64,000 nt of DNA. It comes from Sulfitobacter sabulilitoris (GTDB lineage: Bacteria > Pseudomonadota > Alphaproteobacteria > Rhodobacterales > Rhodobacteraceae). The notes beneath the pieces are model-generated. The model was not told the origin of the DNA, searched no databases, and saw only the letters and a program-made list of their open reading frames with translations. Both the position numbers and the translations under genes were made by a program. Shown here piece by piece: positions 6,416 through 16,574 of the stretch. Location of the stretch: the NCBI RefSeq assembly GCF_005887615.1, contig NZ_VANS01000001.1, forward strand, positions 607,415-671,414. The letters run 5' to 3'. Positions within the stretch are counted from its first letter, which is position 1. Each line of letters starts with the position of its first letter.

Positions 6416-7039
6416 ATGACCGGACAAGATCCCAAATCCCTGATCCAGATCGCCCGCCAGAACGGTGGGACGGACCGCGCTGAGCCGCTTGATCTGGGCG
6501 CGCGGGTGCGCGAATTGCGCAAGGCCCGCGCCTGGACGTTGGAACAGGCAGCCAACCAGGCGGGGCTGGCGCGCTCCACGCTCAGCAAGATCGAGAACGG
6601 CCAAATGTCACCGACCTATGAGGCGCTCAAGAAGCTGGCCGTCGGGCTAGAGATTTCCGTGCCGCAACTTTTCACTCCGCCCCAGCAGGGGCAGGTGGGC
6701 GGGCGCATGTCGGTCACGAAATCGGGCCAGGGCAACGCGCAGGCGACCGTCACCTACGAACACGAACTTTTGGCCGAGACGCTGACCAAAAAGCAGATGC
6801 TGCCCTATCGCGCGCGCGTGCGGGCCCGGTCGATGGAGGAATTCGACGGCTGGGTGCGCCACGATGGCGAGGAATTCCTGTATGTGCTGACCGGAGTCGT
6901 GCGGCTCTATACCGAGTTCTACGAGCCGGTCGAGATGCGCCGCGGCGACAGTGCATATTACGACGCCACGATGGGGCATAACGTCGTGTCGCTGAGCGAC
7001 GAGGACGCGACGATCCTCTGGGTCACCGCGCTGACCTGA
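6416..7039 (+). CDS. XRE-family transcriptional regulator with C-terminal cupin domain
   Basis: A 207-residue two-domain regulator. Residues about 25-85 form an XRE helix-turn-helix (RVRELRKARAWTLEQAANQA ... LARSTLSKIENGQMSPT), and residues about 130-205 form a small cupin barrel (WVRHDGEEFLYVLTGVVRLY). Members of this class sense a small molecule in the cupin and usually control an adjacent catabolic gene. Here the divergent neighbour, 67 bases away, is the acyl-CoA ligase. No Shine-Dalgarno sequence is visible; the bases before the ATG are TTGGCGCC, and the predicted -10 is too close for a normal leader. Autoregulation through the palindrome at 6389-6400 is inferred. Confidence 0.9.
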   Translation: MTGQDPKSLIQIARQNGGTDRAEPLDLGARVRELRKARAWTLEQAANQAGLARSTLSKIENGQMSPTYEALKKLAVGLEISVPQLFTPPQQGQVGGRMSVTKSGQGNAQATVTYEHELLAETLTKKQMLPYRARVRARSMEEFDGWVRHDGEEFLYVLTGVVRLYTEFYEPVEMRRGDSAYYDATMGHNVVSLSDEDATILWVTALT

Positions 7040-7118: not shown

Positions 7119-8936
7119 CTAGCGCGGCGCGTACCACCAGACTTCGGGCATGAAATTCGGGCCGTCGCCATAGATCGGCAGCGGTTCGGGGTATTTCATC
7201 TCGGCGATATGCGCGATCAGACCGGCATCGTACTGCCAGAAGGGGATGACGTAGCGCCCTGCCGTCAGCACCCGGTCAAGCGCGCGGGTCGCGGCGACGA
7301 AGTCCTCCTGGCCACGTGCCTGCAGCATCGCGTCGATCATCGCGTCCACGGCGGGCGATGCCACGCCCATCAGGTTGCGCGACCCCTCCTGTGCCGCGGC
7401 CTCCGACCCCCAATAGAACCGCTGTTCGGTGCCGGGGCTGAGCGACAGCGCACGCCGGAAGGTCGTCATGTCAAAGTCGAACCCATTCACCCGCGCCACG
7501 TACTGCGCATCGTCGATCGCCGCGACCTCCGCCTTGATCCCCAACCGTGTCAGCGCCTGCGTGTAAAGCTCCGCGATGGCGATGTTTTCGGAACTGCCCT
7601 TGGCCAGCAGGATGGAAAAGGCCAGCGGCGTGCCGTCGGCATCGCGCATCGTGCCGTCCTGCGCGGTAAATCCCGCTTGCTCCAGCAGCGCCATCGCGCG
7701 GCGTATGCCCTTGCGGTTGCGCGCCGATCCGTCGCCCTGGGGCAGGCTATAGCCTTCCAGCGTTCCGGGCGGCAGGCTGTCGGCGAAGGGTGCCAGATGT
7801 GCAGCGACATCCTTTGGCGCGGGGCCGGGTCGCATGGCCAGCACCGAATTCGAGAAATACGACGTGATCCGCCGTTGCGCGCCGCCGGTCAGCGTGTCGT
7901 TGATGTATTCGAAATTGAACGCCTGGATCAGCGCCTCGCGCACGCGCCAGTCGTCGAAGGGCGCGCGCCGGGTGTTCATCACGAAACCGGTCATGCCCGA
8001 CGGCTTTTGATGCGGGATCTCGGATTTCACCACGTCGCCGCGCGTGACGGCGGGAAAATCATACTGCGTGGCCCAGGTTTCCACGTTGAATTCGCGCAGG
8101 GCGGAAATTTCTCCGGCCTTGAACGCCTCGAACAGGACCGAGGCATCGCCATAGAAATCCAGGCGGATTTCATCGAAGTTGTGGCTGCCGCGCCGAAACG
8201 GGACATCCTTGCCCCAGTAATCGGGGTCGCGCGTCAGCGTTACATGGCGCCCGGCCTCGAAATCCGACACGACATAGGGTCCGGTCCCCAGCGGCACATC
8301 GGCGAGCGGCGCATTGGCAAAATCGCGCCCCTCCCACTGTGCCCGGCTCAGAACCGGGCGCATGCCCGCCAAAAGCGCCAATTCGCGGTTGTCGGTGTTG
8401 AACGTCATCCGCACGCTGCGCGGCCCGGTCTGTTCGATGCTGTCGATCTGCGACCAAAGGCCATGATACCTGGGATGACCCTCGGTCCCCAGAAGTTCGT
8501 AGGAAAAGATCACGTCCGCCACCGTGACGGGCGTGCCATCGGAAAACCGCGCCTCGGGGCGCAGTGTGAATTCGACCCAGGCCCGGTCCGGCGGCACCTC
8601 GACCGATTCGGCCAACAGACCGTAAAGCGCGAAGGGTTCGTCCCAGGATCGGCCCATCAGGGACTCGTGGGTGAAAAAAGAAAGCTGCCAGGGCGCCGTG
8701 CCTTTGCGCACGTATGGGTTGAGGCTGTCGAAACCGCCGGTATTGCCGAGCGTGATGGATCCGCCCTTTGGTGCGTCCGGATTGACATAGGGCAATGACA
8801 CAAAATCCGGTGGTAGGGCCGGGGACCCGTACATAGATATCCCGTGTTGCGGCCCCGCTGCGCCGGATGACGGCCACAGAATCACCGCAATTGCGGCCAG
8901 AAACGCCCGTGCGTTTTGGAAAAAATCGAGCTCCAT
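7119..8936 (-). CDS. Periplasmic oligopeptide-type ABC solute-binding protein (family 5, YejA-like)
   Basis: A roughly 605-residue periplasmic binding protein of the SBP_bac_5 (DppA/OppA/YejA) fold. After a hydrophobic N-terminal segment (ARAFLAAIAVILWPSSGAAG) the mature part has the family opening PYVNPDAPKGGSI and GGFDSLNPYVRKG, then the central ARFSDGTPVTVADVIFSYEL. The ATG at 8936 was preferred because it puts the signal peptide at the N-terminus; a GTG at 8981 is in the same frame. No convincing ribosome site is visible for either. No permease or ATPase genes lie next to it, so it must use a transporter encoded elsewhere. Relatives bind oligopeptides or microcin C. Confidence 0.87.
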   Translation of the reverse strand: MELDFFQNARAFLAAIAVILWPSSGAAGPQHGISMYGSPALPPDFVSLPYVNPDAPKGGSITLGNTGGFDSLNPYVRKGTAPWQLSFFTHESLMGRSWDEPFALYGLLAESVEVPPDRAWVEFTLRPEARFSDGTPVTVADVIFSYELLGTEGHPRYHGLWSQIDSIEQTGPRSVRMTFNTDNRELALLAGMRPVLSRAQWEGRDFANAPLADVPLGTGPYVVSDFEAGRHVTLTRDPDYWGKDVPFRRGSHNFDEIRLDFYGDASVLFEAFKAGEISALREFNVETWATQYDFPAVTRGDVVKSEIPHQKPSGMTGFVMNTRRAPFDDWRVREALIQAFNFEYINDTLTGGAQRRITSYFSNSVLAMRPGPAPKDVAAHLAPFADSLPPGTLEGYSLPQGDGSARNRKGIRRAMALLEQAGFTAQDGTMRDADGTPLAFSILLAKGSSENIAIAELYTQALTRLGIKAEVAAIDDAQYVARVNGFDFDMTTFRRALSLSPGTEQRFYWGSEAAAQEGSRNLMGVASPAVDAMIDAMLQARGQEDFVAATRALDRVLTAGRYVIPFWQYDAGLIAHIAEMKYPEPLPIYGDGPNFMPEVWWYAPR

Positions 8937-9015
8937 TTCGAAGACAATCCTGCTCTGCCCTTGTTTTATTGACCGCGACACTACCGGGGAGTTTATGTCT
9001 TATCAAACTTTTAGC

Positions 9016-9044
9016 TTGGATCGCGGCGCGGAATTGCTTATAAC
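9016..9044 (+). promoter_or_regulatory. Predicted sigma-70 promoter for a small RNA
   Basis: TTGGAT (9016-9021), a 17-base spacer and TATAAC (9039-9044) match the sigma-70 consensus at 4 and 5 of 6 positions with ideal spacing. Transcription would begin near 9051. The only element downstream on this strand is the hairpin pair ending at 9127, so this promoter supports a short free-standing transcript. Confidence 0.55.
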
Positions 9045-9050
9045 TAACTC

Positions 9051-9127
9051 ACTGCTCGATAGGTTTCTTGCCTGTATGAAACCTGCCTCAATAACTTAAC
9101 GCCTGCTTCGTGCAGGCGTTTTTTTTT
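9051..9127 (+). ncRNA. Candidate trans-acting small RNA, about 77 nt
   Basis: A short unit with its own promoter and terminator and no coding gene. The transcript would fold a first hairpin, AGGTTTC-(10-base loop)-GAAACCT at 9060-9083, then a single-stranded linker (GCCTCAATAACTTAAC), then the terminator stem at 9098-9120 with a T-tract. It sits between the divergent signal region of the YejA-like gene and the convergent VOC gene, and nothing on the plus strand follows for 6.6 kb, so it is not a leader. It holds a 7-codon frame (MKPASIT, 9076-9099), which could be chance. I do not recognise the family; it lacks the CCUCCUCCC loops of the CcsR/alpha-r14 RNAs. Confidence 0.6.
9098..9127 (+). 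terminator. Strong Rho-independent terminator
   Basis: A perfect 9-bp stem AACGCCTGC/GCAGGCGTT with loop TTCGT is followed directly by seven T, giving nine T in a row counting the stem end. No protein gene precedes it on the plus strand, which is why a small RNA is proposed. Confidence 0.88.
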
Positions 9128-9258: not shown

Positions 9259-9651
9259 TCAGCCCGTTTTCATCTCAATGAGCTGGATGAGATTTCCGCA
9301 GGTATCGTCAATGACCGCCATGTGACCGTTACCGGCATCGACCGGCTCTTGAACACATGCGACTCCGGAACTTTTCAGCCGTGCGCACTCAGTGGCCAGA
9401 TCATCAACCTGAAACGACGCGGCCGGAATCCCGTCCCGCTTCAATGCGGCCTTGTAGGGCTTCACCGCAGGGTGCCCGTCGGGTTCGAGGAGCAATTCGG
9501 TCCCATCGGGCTCCTGAGGCGAAACAACCGTTAGCCAACGCGCATCGCCAGCGGGAAAGTCGTTCTTTTTCACGAAGCCGAGCTTGCCCGTATAGAACTC
9601 CAGTGCTTTTGACTGATCGTCCACAAAGACACTTGTCACATAGATCTTCAT
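9259..9651 (-). CDS. VOC-superfamily (glyoxalase/bleomycin-resistance fold) protein
   Basis: A 130-residue protein with two beta-alpha-beta-beta-beta modules, the size of a single VOC unit. It opens MKIYVTSVFVDDQSKALEFY and ends IDDTCGNLIQLIEM, where the last glutamate is a usual metal ligand. Families of this kind include glyoxalase I, extradiol dioxygenases and fosfomycin or bleomycin resistance proteins; none can be chosen here. The start at 9651 was preferred because AAAGGTAGAGAC precedes it, although the frame runs on upstream. It follows the RND pump gene by 31 bases on the same strand and may be the last gene of that operon. GC is lower than in the core of the window. Confidence 0.83.
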   Translation of the reverse strand: MKIYVTSVFVDDQSKALEFYTGKLGFVKKNDFPAGDARWLTVVSPQEPDGTELLLEPDGHPAVKPYKAALKRDGIPAASFQVDDLATECARLKSSGVACVQEPVDAGNGHMAVIDDTCGNLIQLIEMKTG

Positions 9652-9682
9652 GTCTCTACCTTTCAGAGGTTCGGAGCCGGCT

Positions 9683-12600
9683 TTACGCGGGCACCGGCGT
9701 GCCGACTGAACGGGCAGCTCTGCGTTCACCCAACATGAGCATGGCAGGCGTGACCACCAGTGTCAGCATGGTCGCGACGACCAACCCCCCGGCGATGGCC
9801 GACGACAGTTCTGTCCACCACTGCGTTGACGGAGCCCCGTAGACGATCTCACGCGTGAAGAAGTTCAGGTTCAAGCCGATCACCATCGGCATCAAGCCAA
9901 GCGCGGTCGTCACTGATGTCAGGATCACCGGCCGCAGACGCTGGGCACCTGTGCGTAGTGCGGCCTCGAGCGGAGAACGCCCCGAGGTCTTGAGATCGTT
10001 ATAGGTGTCGATCAGAACGATGTTGTTGTTCACCACGATGCCGGCCAGGGCGATCACCCCGATGCCGCCCATCACGATGCCGAAGGGGCGACCTGTGACG
10101 ATCAATCCCAGCAGAACACCGGCGACGGAGAAGACGATCGCGCTCATGACCACAAAGGCTTGAAAGAAGCTGTTGAACTGGATCACGAGGATCACGAACA
10201 TCAGGAAAATCGCCGCAATGAACGCACCGACCAGGAACACCATGCTTTCCTTCTGATCCTGCGCTTCGCCAGCGAAGCTGAACGAAACGCCATCGGGCAA
10301 CTCCGCCTCGGTCAATGCCGCAGTCAGTGCGATAACCTGATCGTTCACCAGCAGGTCGGCCGCCACATTGGCCTCAATTGTCGTGACGCGCTTTTCGTCG
10401 ATGCGTCGGATGACGCCCGTTCGATCTGACGGCTCGAAGGTCACGAAATTGGCGATGGGCACAAGCCCGGAAGATGTCGGCACCCGCAGGCTGCCGAGTT
10501 CCGCCAATGACCGTTCCTCCCGAGGAAAGCGAACCCGGATATCGAGCGAGCCATCCGTGTCGTCGGGGCGGTAATCCGCGACCGTGATCCCTTGGGTCAA
10601 GAGTTGCACGGCCTGGCCAAGAAGGCTCACATCGGCCCCGAACCGCGCGGCCTCTGCCCGGTTCACGATGATGGACACTTCGACGCCCGGCACGGGCCGC
10701 GTGTCGGTCACGTCCGTGAACCCGCCCAGTCCGTCCATGATATCGCGGATTTGCTGCACCGCCTGCATCTGTGCCGTTGCGTTGCCGCCTGTCACCTGAA
10801 GATTGACCGGCTTGCCCGCCGTCGGACCTCCGCTCTCGGTCTGCACCTGCACGTCGATCCCGGCGATGGCGGCAACATCCTCGCGGATATCCACCCCGAT
10901 CTCGGCCGCAGTTCTGCGTGTATCCCACGGTGTCAGTTCGAGCTGGAGCGTGCCGATGGTTTCTTCGTCGCCTTGTCCCGCGCTCATCACGGATCGGGCA
11001 TAGACGGAGGCGATCTCGTCGTAGCCGAGAATCCGGTTTTCAACCGCCCGCACGAGCGCATCGCGCTCGAAGATCGAGAAATTGTCGCGTGCGCGCACCT
11101 GCACCTGCATGAAGTCCGGCTCCACAGACGGGAAAAAGCTGATCCCCTGGCCGAATTGTCCATAGAGGCTGAACCCGCCGAGCAGCAGGGCGACTGCCAA
11201 AAGAACTGTCGCTGCGGGGCGAAGGATTGCCCACTCCAGAATGCGGACATAGATGCCGGTCAGACCTCCGATGTCGCGGGGATCGCCAAACTCGGCCGCA
11301 TGAAGTGCCGCCTTGGCTTTCGCGGATTGCGGCTGCCTTTTGCCGATCAGCCCGCCCATGACGGGGATAAAGATCAGCGCCATGAAGAGTGAGGCGAACA
11401 GTGTCAGGATCACGGTGATCGGCAGGAATTTCATGAACTCGCCCACCATGCCCGTCCAGAACAGCAGCGGGAAAAACACGCTGAGCGTCGTCGCGGTCGA
11501 GGCGATGATCGGCCATGCCATCCGCTTGGCGGCAAAGGCATAGGCCTCCTTGGCTGGAACACCTTCCTGCAATTTGCGGTCGGCCAGCTCTGTCGTGACG
11601 ATAGCCCCGTCCACGAGCATCCCGACCACAAGGATCAGCGAGAACAACACGACGATGTTCATCGTGAATCCCATCCCCCAGAGGGCGATTACCCCGGCAA
11701 GAAACGCGCCCGGAATGGCAAGTCCGACGAGGAAGGCAGACCTGAGCCCGAGGGCCAGGACGATCACGATCATCACGAGGATGACGGCGGCGATGACGTT
11801 GGCTTCCAGATCGCTCAATAGGTCTTTCACCTGCTTAGATTGATCCTGAAGATAGGTGATCTCGATGCTGTCCGGCCAATCGGCCCGCAGCTCTTCGACA
11901 AGCGCCTTCACTTCGGCCACGGTCTCGATGATGTTCGCACCCGAGCGTTTGGTGATTTCCAGCGCGAGTGCCGGCTGCCCGTTGATCCGGGCAAAACTGC
12001 TCGGGTCCTCGAACGTGCGGCGGATCGTGGCCACATCGCCGAAGGTGACGACAGCATCGCCGCGCACCTTGACCGGCATCGCCATCACATCTTCGAGGTC
12101 TTCGATCAGGCCCGGCACTTTCAGCACGATCCGGCCAGCCCCGGTTTCGATCGCCCCCGCGGCGATCAGTCGGTTGTTGCGCTGGATTTGCCCGATCAGC
12201 TCATCGAAGGACAGGTTGTAGGTCTGGAAGACGGTAGGGTCGATCAGCACCTCGAGAAATTCGAAACGCTGCCCGCCGATATCGACTTCGAGGACACCTT
12301 CAAGACCCTCGATCTCTTCCTGGAGCGTGTCGGCAAGGTCGTTGAGCGTCCGTTCCGGCACCGGGCCGGACAGGATGGCTGTGATGATAGGAAAGAGCGC
12401 CGTGTTGATCTCGGTGATGGTGATGTCGCGGGCGTCTTCGGGCAGATCGCCCTGCACCCGGTCGACGGCCTCACGCACCTTGTCCAATGCTTCGTCGTTG
12501 TCACCTCCCGGCATGAACTCAAGCTGGATGCTTGCAAAACCCTCGCTGGCATCGGAATTCATGCTTTGAAGGCCGGTAATCGAGGCAAACTCGGTCTCCA

Positions 12601-12802
12601 TCGGCTCAATCAGCAATCGTTCGGCGTCGCTGGGGCTGATGCCATCAAGGCCGGTTGACACGTAAAACAGCGGCAGCGGCACTTCCGGGTTGGCTTCTTT
12701 CGGGATCGAGACATAAGCGAATGCACCGACGGCCAGCACCATGACCAGAGCCATGACGACAACGCGGGACCGTGAAAAAGCGGCCTTGATTATGCTGTTC
12801 AT
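9683..12802 (-). CDS. RND-family efflux transporter, inner-membrane pump
   Basis: A 1039-residue AcrB/MexB-fold pump that drives export of toxic compounds by proton motive force. TM1 is near residues 12-30, followed by the large periplasmic porter domain (SPSDAERLLIEPMETEFAS). TM4 carries the proton-relay region GMLVDGAIVTTELADRKLQE, and the second half has the matching GVIALAGIVVNNNIVLIDTY. The VNNNIVL form is typical of the HAE-1-like branch with unknown substrates. Its ATG overlaps the stop of the fusion-protein gene as ATGA. No outer-membrane TolC-type gene is present, so an unlinked one must serve. Regulation is probably by the GbsR/MarR gene at the head of the operon. Confidence 0.94.
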   Translation of the reverse strand: MNSIIKAAFSRSRVVVMALVMVLAVGAFAYVSIPKEANPEVPLPLFYVSTGLDGISPSDAERLLIEPMETEFASITGLQSMNSDASEGFASIQLEFMPGGDNDEALDKVREAVDRVQGDLPEDARDITITEINTALFPIITAILSGPVPERTLNDLADTLQEEIEGLEGVLEVDIGGQRFEFLEVLIDPTVFQTYNLSFDELIGQIQRNNRLIAAGAIETGAGRIVLKVPGLIEDLEDVMAMPVKVRGDAVVTFGDVATIRRTFEDPSSFARINGQPALALEITKRSGANIIETVAEVKALVEELRADWPDSIEITYLQDQSKQVKDLLSDLEANVIAAVILVMIVIVLALGLRSAFLVGLAIPGAFLAGVIALWGMGFTMNIVVLFSLILVVGMLVDGAIVTTELADRKLQEGVPAKEAYAFAAKRMAWPIIASTATTLSVFFPLLFWTGMVGEFMKFLPITVILTLFASLFMALIFIPVMGGLIGKRQPQSAKAKAALHAAEFGDPRDIGGLTGIYVRILEWAILRPAATVLLAVALLLGGFSLYGQFGQGISFFPSVEPDFMQVQVRARDNFSIFERDALVRAVENRILGYDEIASVYARSVMSAGQGDEETIGTLQLELTPWDTRRTAAEIGVDIREDVAAIAGIDVQVQTESGGPTAGKPVNLQVTGGNATAQMQAVQQIRDIMDGLGGFTDVTDTRPVPGVEVSIIVNRAEAARFGADVSLLGQAVQLLTQGITVADYRPDDTDGSLDIRVRFPREERSLAELGSLRVPTSSGLVPIANFVTFEPSDRTGVIRRIDEKRVTTIEANVAADLLVNDQVIALTAALTEAELPDGVSFSFAGEAQDQKESMVFLVGAFIAAIFLMFVILVIQFNSFFQAFVVMSAIVFSVAGVLLGLIVTGRPFGIVMGGIGVIALAGIVVNNNIVLIDTYNDLKTSGRSPLEAALRTGAQRLRPVILTSVTTALGLMPMVIGLNLNFFTREIVYGAPSTQWWTELSSAIAGGLVVATMLTLVVTPAMLMLGERRAARSVGTPVPA

Positions 12803-14007
12803 TGGGTCTGCTCCCCTGCGGCGGGCGCCACGGTTTCATCGGCGTTCACGTAGCCCTGACCAACCGTGATGACATCGACAGTGTCCGGCAGGCCGGTCAC
12901 CCAGACGCCGTCGATCTGCGCGCGGACGACTTGAACAGGGAAAAACTCGACCACATTGCCGCCGTTCACGGTCTTCACACCGAGGCGGCCTTCCGTGTCG
13001 AGCGACACGATTGAGGGCGAAAGAAAGTGCGCAGTCGCTTCACCTGTCGGGATCACGACCTCGGCCGAGATACCTGCCGGGATCGCACCATCGTCATTCA
13101 TGACTTCGATCTCGGCAAGAAACGTGCGGGTCTCGGCGGCCGCCGATGTTCCGACGAACGTCACAGTGCCTTCCCGTTCCTCACCGGTGATAAAGCGCAC
13201 AGTCGCCGTCTGGCCGGCGGAAAGCCGGTTCAGGGATTGTTGGGGCACCTGGATCGCGACGGTCAGAGGCGTGATATCGACCAAACGTCCGACTTCCGTT
13301 CCGGCCGAGATGAACTCGCCTTCATCCAGATCAAGCGTTTCGATGCGTCCTGCGAAAGGCGCTGTGATCGTCAGAGCCTCGGCGGCCTCGGAAACCGCCG
13401 TGACCTGAGCCTGCGCCGTCGCGAGCGTCGCACGCGCCTGCGACACCCGATCCACCGTTGCGACGCCGCGTTCCAGAAGGGCCTGCGCATTGTCGAACTC
13501 GCGTTGGGCGCGCGCCAGTTCTTCGGCGGCACGGGCGGCTTCCGCATTGTTGCCGGTCGGATCGATCCGCGCGATCGCATCCCCAGCCGACACGTCCTGG
13601 CCCTTGCGGACCAGAACTTCGGCGATGTTGCCGGATGTCTCGGCTCTGAGCATCGTATCGCGATCAGGCAGGGCCTGACCCTCGGCCTGATAATATTGGG
13701 TGGTTGTTTCCGCAGTCGATGTCTCGACGGCCACGGCCACCGGCTTCGGGTCTTCCCGTGTCACGACCGCTGCGCTGTCTTCAGATGGCAGGATGAATCC
13801 GCTCCCCATCCAGCCGACAATGCCGACGACCAGTGCACCGGCGATCCAGGTCGAGCGCGACGCGCCTTCGTCGGATGAAAAGGCAAGTTGCTTCGGCGCG
13901 GTATCGCTCTGATGATCGGGCGTTGCGGACCCGGCATCCTGTTCTTCGGAAACAAGTTCGGCATCCAAGACCGGATCATCTGCCTTGGTCAGCGTGTTAG
14001 TCTTCAT
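12799..14007 (-). CDS. RND efflux periplasmic adaptor (membrane-fusion protein, HlyD/AcrA type)
   Basis: A 402-residue adaptor that links the RND pump to the outer-membrane channel. It has an unusual cytoplasmic N-terminal stretch of about 60 acidic residues before the single membrane anchor (WIAGALVVGIVGWMGSGFIL). The lipoyl half-motif is ETSGNIAEVLVRKGQDVSAG, then a coiled-coil hairpin (ARAAEELARAQREFDNAQAL), the second lipoyl half (APFAGRIETLDLDEGEFISA) and the beta-barrel. The start at 14007 is preferred because GGAGGA lies 9 bases upstream. It overlaps the regulator gene end by 11 bases and the pump gene start by 4 bases. Confidence 0.92.
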   Translation of the reverse strand: MKTNTLTKADDPVLDAELVSEEQDAGSATPDHQSDTAPKQLAFSSDEGASRSTWIAGALVVGIVGWMGSGFILPSEDSAAVVTREDPKPVAVAVETSTAETTTQYYQAEGQALPDRDTMLRAETSGNIAEVLVRKGQDVSAGDAIARIDPTGNNAEAARAAEELARAQREFDNAQALLERGVATVDRVSQARATLATAQAQVTAVSEAAEALTITAPFAGRIETLDLDEGEFISAGTEVGRLVDITPLTVAIQVPQQSLNRLSAGQTATVRFITGEEREGTVTFVGTSAAAETRTFLAEIEVMNDDGAIPAGISAEVVIPTGEATAHFLSPSIVSLDTEGRLGVKTVNGGNVVEFFPVQVVRAQIDGVWVTGLPDTVDVITVGQGYVNADETVAPAAGEQTQ

Positions 14008-14515
14008 GAGATTGTTCCTCCGGGGTTTTCGGGGCTGGCACCGGATTTTTCGATTTCCTGGACTGCAGTTCGTCAAGCGCGACTGCCACGGCGGTTTCCA
14101 GTGATGCGTAGAAGTCAGCGTATTCGGACAGCCGCGCCACTGCGCCGGTATCCTCGGGAAGTGCGGCGACGGTTCTCACGATCTCTTCCCGCGTGGATCG
14201 GGTTCGCTTGTGGACCCCTTCGAGCAACGTTGCGTAAGGATTGGTTGCAAGCTGGAAGAAATCGCCACGCTGGCCTGGCTTCGCCCGGCGCTTCACAAGA
14301 CCCCGCTCTTCGAGGAGCCGAATGCTGGTGCTGATGCTCGCGCGGCTGACCTGCAAACGTGTTGCGAGATCCCCGAAAGACACCATCTCTCCGTCGAAGA
14401 TCAACATCCCAAAGACGCGACCGGCGATACGCGGCAGCCCCTCCGCCTGCGAGATGAGGCCCGACTTCTCGATGAAGTCGGCCCGGACAGCATCAATCTT
14501 GGTCTGCTTCGACAT
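13997..14515 (-). CDS. GbsR/MarR-family transcriptional regulator
   Basis: A 172-residue winged-helix regulator. The DNA-binding part is MVSFGDLATRLQVSRASIST followed by SIRLLEERGLVKR near residues 44-78, and the C-terminal half is helical and probably dimerising. GbsR-type proteins often sit at the head of RND operons and repress them. ATG at 14515 has AGAAGGAAT just upstream. Its end overlaps the adaptor start by 11 bases, so regulator, adaptor and pump form one operon. An AT-rich dyad that overlaps a predicted -10 lies 36 to 61 bases upstream and is a natural target for autorepression. Confidence 0.88.
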   Translation of the reverse strand: MSKQTKIDAVRADFIEKSGLISQAEGLPRIAGRVFGMLIFDGEMVSFGDLATRLQVSRASISTSIRLLEERGLVKRRAKPGQRGDFFQLATNPYATLLEGVHKRTRSTREEIVRTVAALPEDTGAVARLSEYADFYASLETAVAVALDELQSRKSKNPVPAPKTPEEQSHED

Positions 14516-14550
14516 CTGCGATTCCTTCTGTTGAAGCCGGTCAATCCACA

Positions 14551-14591
14551 ACAAATATGTCTAATGTACATTTTGTTTAGTCATAACTGAA
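14551..14591 (-). promoter_or_regulatory. Predicted promoter and operator of the efflux operon
   Basis: On the minus strand TTCAGT (14591-14586), a 17-base spacer and TACATT (14568-14563) form a weak promoter 48 bases before the regulator start. The -10 is embedded in an imperfect AT-rich dyad, ACAAATATGT-CTAATG-TACATTTTGT (14551-14576). An operator over the -10 box fits repression by the MarR-like regulator. Confidence 0.4.
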
Positions 14592-14754: not shown

Positions 14755-15436
14755 TCATATCTGGCGGCCGACGGCCTCGCAGAGCAGGCCGCGCATCCGA
14801 TCCACGACAGGGATCGGTTTCCAAAAGGTCGTGATTTTGACCGTTGGGAGACCGGACAATGACTTCAGCTTCCGCGCCTTGGTGTCGGGGGGGCCCGGTG
14901 GTTCCACCGCCAGATGGTCTCGCCCAGACAGCGCTGAAGGTGCTTTCGCCCCAGGCGGTGACAGGCACCGATCAGGGCGCGCTGCACGGCCGCATTCACG
15001 GCCTCGACAATGTTGATGAGGACCCCGGTCCTCTTGTTCGCCATCGCCGGACGTCTATCATCTCGCGGATGGCATGGCCAAGTTTCCAGGCTGTCTTCTG
15101 GGTCACGCCCAGAACGCGCGCCATTACGACCGACGAGATTCCGTTAGAGGACGTCAGAACGAGGAACATCGCCGCAATCCAGATCCGCAGGTCGAGCTTG
15201 GTCGCATGGAGTGGCGTCTTGGTTGTGACGGTGAACTGGCTGCGGCATTCCTTCTCGGCGCACTGATACGGTCCGGCACGCACAGACGCGCCGCGCAGCC
15301 GGCGCGGGTTCAGGCTGCCGCGGTGCGGGCAGAACCGGTCATCGCCCCAGATGGCGTTCACGAGGAAGCGCCGCGCATGGCTCCCGGTCGGCACCCTCGT
15401 CCAGACATCGCGGAAGGATTTCAGATCGGTCATCAT
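14755..15436 (-). pseudogene. IS1595-family (ISXO2-like) transposase remnant, internally deleted
   Basis: The first part, from the ATG ATG at 15436, encodes the zinc-ribbon and helix-turn-helix start of an IS1595-type transposase (FCPHRGS ... YQCAEKECRSQFTVTTKTPL ... GVTQKTAWKLGHAIREMI); the first Cys pair is degraded to CPHR. Directly after this the frame breaks. In another frame the sequence resumes with a transposase C-terminal piece (VEAVNAAVQRALIG ... KHLQRCLGETIWRWNHR), and in a third frame with WKPIPVVDRMRGLLCEAVGRQ before a TGA. The central DDE catalytic core is missing, so it cannot be active. I found no clear terminal inverted repeats. It marks past insertion beside the efflux operon. 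Confidence 0.72.
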
Positions 15437-15788
15437 GACGTCGCCTTGCTTCGGGTCGGACCCCGGAAGACCGGCTGGTTCCTCCGAACCGGAAGCGACT
15501 ACGTTATGGCGGCTTGGATGCGGCTGAGAGGCGAACAGGCCGAGCGGTGCTGGCTGACCTGTTTTTCTTCGTGAATCATGGGGTTTTTTTGCCCGATCGG
15601 TCGTACCGCAGCGTCGTGATCCCGGACGGGCGCCTTCGCAACATCGCGGTTCCGCGCCGCGTGCGGCACATGCCACGGCATCCGGGACGCGGCAAAGGCG
15701 CCCCCACCGGAAATGTGCATTTCTTTCGCGGTCGCAGCGTGGCAAGCTGCGCGCGCAGAAAAGCGTCAGATCACAAAGGACAGACCCA
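15437..15788. other. Intergenic stretch without a recognisable gene
   Basis: About 350 bases between the transposase remnant and the dehydrogenase. It holds a GGTTTTTTTGCCC tract near 15582-15594 but no stem that would make it a terminator. Short open frames on both strands have no start context or family features. It probably contains the dehydrogenase promoter and the old edge of the mobile element. Confidence 0.5.
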
Positions 15789-16574
15789 ATGGCATACGAG
15801 ATTTCCCTTTCCGGCAAGACCGCCGTGATCACCGGTTCGAATTCGGGCATCGGCCTCGGGATGGCCTGGGCGCTGGCACGGGCGGGCGCGGATGTGGTGC
15901 TGAATTCATTCACGGATGACAAGGCCGATCACGCGCTGGCCACGGAAATCGCGCTCGAGACCGGTGTGGCGGCCCGCTATATCCAGGCCGATATGTCCAA
16001 GGGCGATCAGTGCCGCGCGCTGATCGAAGAGGCGGGCAGCTGCGATATCCTGGTCAACAATGCCGGCATCCAGCATGTCGCGCCGATCCCGGAGTTCCCG
16101 AGCGAGAAATGGGACGCGATCATCGCGATCAACCTGACGTCGGCCTTTCACACCACTGCCGTCGCCCTGCCGATGATGCGCAAGGCCGGTTGGGGCCGGG
16201 TGATCAACATCTCGAGCGCGCACGGCCTGACCGCGTCGCCCTTCAAGGCGGCCTATATCGCCGCCAAGCACGGTATCGTCGGCCTGACCAAGACCACGGC
16301 GCTCGAGACCGCGCAGGAGCCCATCACCGCCAATGCGATCTGCCCCGGCTACGTGCTGACGCCGATCGTGGAAAAGCAGATCCCCGACACGATGAAGGAA
16401 TACGACATGAGTCGGGAAGATGTGATCGAAAAGGTCATGCTGACCCGCCAGCCGTCAAAGGAATTCGCCACGGTCGAGCAGTTGGGCGGCACGGCGACTT
16501 TCCTGTGCTCGGATGCGGCGGCGCAGATCACCGGCACCACGATCAGCGTGGATGGCGGGTGGACCGCGCTTTGA
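15789..16574 (+). CDS. bdhA: 3-hydroxybutyrate dehydrogenase (SDR family)
   Basis: A 261-residue cytoplasmic short-chain dehydrogenase that interconverts (R)-3-hydroxybutyrate and acetoacetate with NAD. The nucleotide loop is TGSNSGIGLG (residues 15-24), NNAG is at 90-93, and the catalytic Ser143, Tyr156 and Lys160 lie in ISSAHGLTASPFKAAYIAAK. The segments GIQHVAPIPEFP and VLTPIVEKQIPD are characteristic of bacterial HBDH rather than of generic SDRs. The length is standard. It is followed after 55 bases by the patatin gene on the same strand, a combination that suits degradation of poly-3-hydroxybutyrate. Confidence 0.93.
   Translation: MAYEISLSGKTAVITGSNSGIGLGMAWALARAGADVVLNSFTDDKADHALATEIALETGVAARYIQADMSKGDQCRALIEEAGSCDILVNNAGIQHVAPIPEFPSEKWDAIIAINLTSAFHTTAVALPMMRKAGWGRVINISSAHGLTASPFKAAYIAAKHGIVGLTKTTALETAQEPITANAICPGYVLTPIVEKQIPDTMKEYDMSREDVIEKVMLTRQPSKEFATVEQLGGTATFLCSDAAAQITGTTISVDGGWTAL

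Follow-up and report, generated by a model that had tools for sequence, protein, structure and literature searches.

A small-RNA gene of Sulfitobacter sabulilitoris is very probably stsR and is near-unchanged in almost every genus of the Rhodobacteraceae

We found that an RNA gene at 9016–9127 on the plus strand of the window, a 64,000-nucleotide stretch of the Sulfitobacter sabulilitoris genome analysed as a whole, is very probably orthologous to Rhodobacter sphaeroides StsR, which was formerly called RSs0827. This identification draws on the RNA's length, its target, its promoter and the orthologs of the nearest named relatives of R. sphaeroides rather than on the R. sphaeroides sequence itself. 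The original prediction had implied that the RNA was novel, and this part of it has to be given up: the RNA is already known as StsR, and the comparison shows it near-unchanged in almost every genus of the family. In R. sphaeroides, the 72-nt StsR (PMC8307010) depends on RpoHI/RpoHII, with stress and stationary phase as the inducing conditions. It binds to UpsM as well as to the dcw 5′ UTR and promotes the cleavage of both UpsM and the dcw leader by RNase E (PMC8307010, PMC11354728). Hfq binding and a growth effect of StsR have also been published for that species. UpsM is an sRNA that originates from early termination in the R. sphaeroides dcw 5′ UTR, at a terminator 84 nt upstream of mraZ (PMC5089854).

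The gene opens with a −35 region, TTGGAT (9016–9021), and a −10/−12 region, TATAAC (9039–9044), spaced by 17 bases. The predicted transcript (StsR nt 1–72) occupies 9051–9122, the T tract continuing to 9127, and ends in a Rho-independent terminator (9098–9127) with a stem of nine perfect pairs (9098–9106/9112–9120) and nine T (9119–9127). These predicted ends agree with a free-standing sRNA of about 72 nt, as StsR is. The promoter boxes, the hairpin described below and the terminator had all been located correctly in the original prediction, and its predicted start near 9051 fits the abrupt onset of near-invariance at that base. Among the aligned loci of 89 genera, the best-conserved promoter bases were the two triplets TTG at −35 (alike in 88, 89 and 86 genera) and TAT at −12 (87, 88 and 87). 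They exactly match the published consensus triplets for RpoHI/RpoHII (−35 TTG, −12 TAT; PMC10673084), by which the stsR promoter is classed as RpoHI/RpoHII-type. A consensus promoter scan of the sequence did not list the stsR promoter because TATAAC does not have the final T that the scan requires; support comes instead from the conservation of TTG and TAT across genera. Another conserved stretch, TCAAACTTTTAGC (9003–9015, strand unassigned), was kept in most of the 89 loci. Read on the other strand, this sequence directly upstream of the −35 region (TCAAACTTTTAG) could supply the divergent solute-binding-protein gene with its −35, so that the two promoters would stand back to back, or it could alternatively be an UP-like element. 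A 16-base inverted repeat (9009–9024/9132–9147) was taken as chance, its right arm not being conserved.

A DNA search of 147 relatives, including 90 family genomes each from another genus, revealed the RNA in 89 of the 90 Rhodobacteraceae and nowhere convincing outside the family. When the 89 fetched loci were aligned, 40 of the first 41 positions of the RNA were alike in at least 85 genomes and 30 were identical in all, while the linker after CCTCAA and the terminator varied, the linker also through insertions and deletions. When 18 of the sequences were used to build a covariance model, the RNA was detected in 290 of 296 genomes from the family, and in 259 of the 261 of good quality, with matches of about 100 bits. 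Among 385 genomes drawn from the class, the five family members scored about 100 bits, and no credible match was obtained outside the family (best other match, 31.5 bits). The gene is single copy in S. sabulilitoris; two genomes, G566 and G670, had two StsR matches each and every other listed genome had one. StsR was not found in G033 (L149; genome 74% complete), yet the mraZ leader of this genome still carries TTTCATACAGGCA, and its stsR gene may lie in the missing part. A phage collection contained no match to stsR, and in a plasmid collection the only matches were four Paracoccus replicons of 1.5–2.2 Mb that are filed as plasmids (NZ_CP038206, NZ_CP035287, CP038202 and NZ_CP038196).

The RNA was predicted to fold with −24.8 kcal/mol, compared with −12.8 ± 2.5 for shuffled sequences (z = −4.8; 0 of 200 shuffles as good). 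Stem-loop 1 (9060–9085, plus strand; nt 10–17 paired with nt 28–35) is formed by the hairpin AGGTTTC/GAAACCT at 9061–9067/9078–9084, with eight pairs when the T-G at 9060/9085 is counted, and is supported by this fold and by a stem that is near-invariant in the 89 genera. The original prediction had looked to compensatory changes in both stems. They were present in the terminator stem, where the 89-genus alignment had C-G, G-C, A-T and T-A at pair 54/64 and G-C and C-G at pair 51/67; covariation in stem 1 was uninformative because that stem barely varies. The compensatory changes, together with the presence of the RNA in nearly all family genomes, support the claim that the sRNA stands alone, with a promoter and a terminator of its own, and is not part of a leader or of a 3′ end. 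It is also correct that no plus-strand gene follows for 6.6 kb, the next one starting at 15789, 6.66 kb on; the nearest upstream on this strand lies at 6416–7039.

The closest named relatives of R. sphaeroides among the genomes compared, Cereibacter johrii (located via a PufX search), C. azotoformans and C. ovatus, carry the same RNA with matching nt 1–41. The C. johrii ortholog has a T run at nt 69–76, which fits a 72-nt transcript, and the C. johrii genome has the leader site described below with 17 of 18 bases. The RNA of S. sabulilitoris resembles StsR in its length, its two-hairpin layout with the terminator at the end, its RpoHI/RpoHII-type promoter and the long stretch over which it is antisense to the dcw leader/UpsM. 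It differs from the Cereibacter orthologs in the sequence of the linker and terminator stem, and expression and function, known experimentally in R. sphaeroides, are predicted here from sequence. Sequence strings of the RNA did not occur in the literature text searched. The database checks recommended with the original prediction yielded the relatives above and, from Rfam, no family at the gathering cut-off. Weak Rfam matches at a relaxed threshold (suhB, RyhB, SorY, Hrs13 and the Trp leader) were rejected because they differed between orthologs. The resemblance to suhB/mmgR (RF00519) amounted to 23–28 bits, with 23.2 bits for this RNA against a gathering score of 41, and SorY (RF02651), the singlet-oxygen sRNA of R. 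sphaeroides, reached 14.7 bits against a cut-off of 111. The CcsR/alpha-r14 RNAs of Rhodobacter are stress-related sRNAs of the same bacteria, but their CCUCCUCCC loops were absent from 9051–9127 and the RNA had no Rfam match at cut-off, in line with the original prediction, which had set it apart from them.

We found that an 18-base second match (query 60–77, window 9069–9086) recurred in genome after genome in the DNA search. This antisense region, TGCCTGTATGAAACCTGC (9069–9086, plus strand; nt 19–36), occupies the loop of hairpin 1 together with its 3′ arm and is complementary to the mraZ/dcw leader (UpsM). In the S. sabulilitoris genome, the complement was perfect (18/18, G000:C1:1162422–1162439) and was located 196 nt upstream of the mraZ GTG. 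The match sits on the strand opposite to mraZ, and the best same-sense match in the same leader was 7 nt. As the leader terminator comes only after the site, the site falls inside UpsM, which is the arrangement published for UpsM of R. sphaeroides (PMC5089854). The pairing of StsR with UpsM and the dcw 5′ UTR has its counterpart here at sequence level, as complementarity. Pairing was counted in the 76 genomes that provided an mraZ region as well as StsR. Ungapped pairing of at least 16 of 18 positions was observed in 60 of the 76, whereas the best of 20 shuffles usually gave 15. Ten more genomes had the site at the same place with a bulge or more mismatches, and in G069 it was on another contig end, adjoining mraZ. 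The leader site was kept in 71 of 75 assessable genera, a number that leaves out G017 because of a contig end; its flanks differed between genera while the site itself stayed. An apparent compensatory change in G017 (A26T with a matching site) was rejected, as that site is outside any dcw leader and looks like part of the coding region of a different gene.

Among the 75 genera, four (G008, G029, G059 and G083) kept stsR (loci L092, L095, L090 and L091, respectively) and had no recognisable site upstream of mraZ (loci L179, L154, L160 and L162); these exceptions may hold undetected gapped sites. Two of the four, G029 and G059, also showed drift in the StsR loop, with changes in the pairing region, whereas nt 20–36 were unchanged in the 71 genomes with the site. 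This pattern is suggestive, although it concerns few and related genomes. In contrast to what an 18-nt dcw site needs, the 41-nt core is stricter and longer, and it persists where no site is recognisable. Nucleotides 1–18 and 37–41 (window 9051–9068 and 9087–9091) were about as invariant as the pairing region across the 89 genera. The strictness of the core could reflect contact with Hfq, a requirement of folding or a second partner.

Since the core is kept even by genera that have no such site in the mraZ leader, it is conceivable, though less likely than not, that it is held fixed by a second, universal partner (an RNA or a protein) in addition to the dcw leader, which would make StsR an unusually strictly conserved trans-acting sRNA. 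In a related reading, the RNA is still the StsR ortholog and has the dcw leader as one of several targets, its main and oldest partner being a different conserved RNA or protein. This agrees with our preferred reading on identity and differs on what holds the core; we regard it as possible, though likewise less likely than not. It is favoured by the invariance of nt 1–18 and 37–41, by the unchanged nt 1–39 in G008 and G083, both without a recognisable dcw site, and by rpoE mRNA, a second published StsR target in R. sphaeroides. However, no second long complementarity recurring across genomes emerged from the DNA search, Hfq binding and folding alone may hold the core, and the four exceptions could be accounted for by gapped sites.

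The original prediction had proposed the linker GCCTCAATAACTTAAC as the seed region, and a new, unrelated trans-acting sRNA with this seed would be consistent with the linker being unpaired in the predicted fold. The bases after CCTCAA, however, vary and carry indels while nt 1–41 hardly change, the long conserved complementarity lies at nt 19–36 (9069–9086) instead, and size, promoter, target and family range all fit StsR; the linker was therefore abandoned as the seed, and an unrelated sRNA appears very improbable. Least credible of all is that the locus encodes no trans-acting RNA and consists of a terminator for minus-strand genes, a promoter remnant and spacer: the symmetry of the terminator stem and the minus-strand genes on both sides of stsR would fit this, but what follows the stem on the minus strand is TTAAGTTATTGAGG-like sequence without a T tract, the glyoxalase and efflux genes adjoin the RNA only here among the 89 loci even though the RNA itself is nearly universal, and a 41-base near-invariant stretch and a promoter would be superfluous for a terminator.

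On the minus strand at 7119–8936 lies a gene for an extracellular solute-binding protein of family 5 (Pfam PF00496, E = 3e-67), and this divergent SBP_bac_5 gene adjoins stsR in 85 of the 89 loci, making it a conserved synteny marker. On the other side, minus-strand genes at 9259–14554 encode a glyoxalase, an AcrB-type efflux pump, a HlyD-type membrane-fusion protein and a MarR regulator. The block looks like a lineage-specific arrival, because neither of the two genes tested, the glyoxalase and the pump, lies next to stsR in any of the remaining 88 loci. An open reading frame at 14996–15922 (minus strand) had a weak match to an IS1595-type transposase zinc ribbon (E = 4.5e-5, just under the curated cut-off) and is possibly a transposon remnant near the efflux block.

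Returning to the StsR reading, we are highly confident that the locus is stsR, with an RpoHI/RpoHII-type promoter, and that its product would act as an Hfq-type sRNA that pairs with the dcw leader, directs an RNase E cut and slows division. The present analysis provides the gene, its conservation, the promoter type, the covariation of the terminator and the long, conserved complementarity to a site that precedes the terminator of the mraZ leader. The published work on R. sphaeroides provides control by RpoHI/RpoHII, the binding of Hfq and UpsM, cleavage by RNase E and the effect on growth; by analogy, the same steps would operate in this organism. Most likely, under stress or in stationary phase, RpoHI/RpoHII would transcribe a 72–77-nt StsR, and StsR with Hfq would open stem-loop 1. 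Nucleotides 19–36 would then pair with the dcw leader/UpsM, opening the leader structure so that the leader refolds. RNase E would cut the leader, dcw mRNA would fall and division would slow.

An unnamed hairpin in this way becomes a recognised regulator linking stress to cell division. Since no Rfam family recognises the RNA at cut-off, its annotation is probably missing from genomes of the family; the alignment from this analysis would serve as a model. Collectively, these data suggest that the StsR–dcw pairing, experimentally studied in one species, is near-universal in the Rhodobacteraceae.
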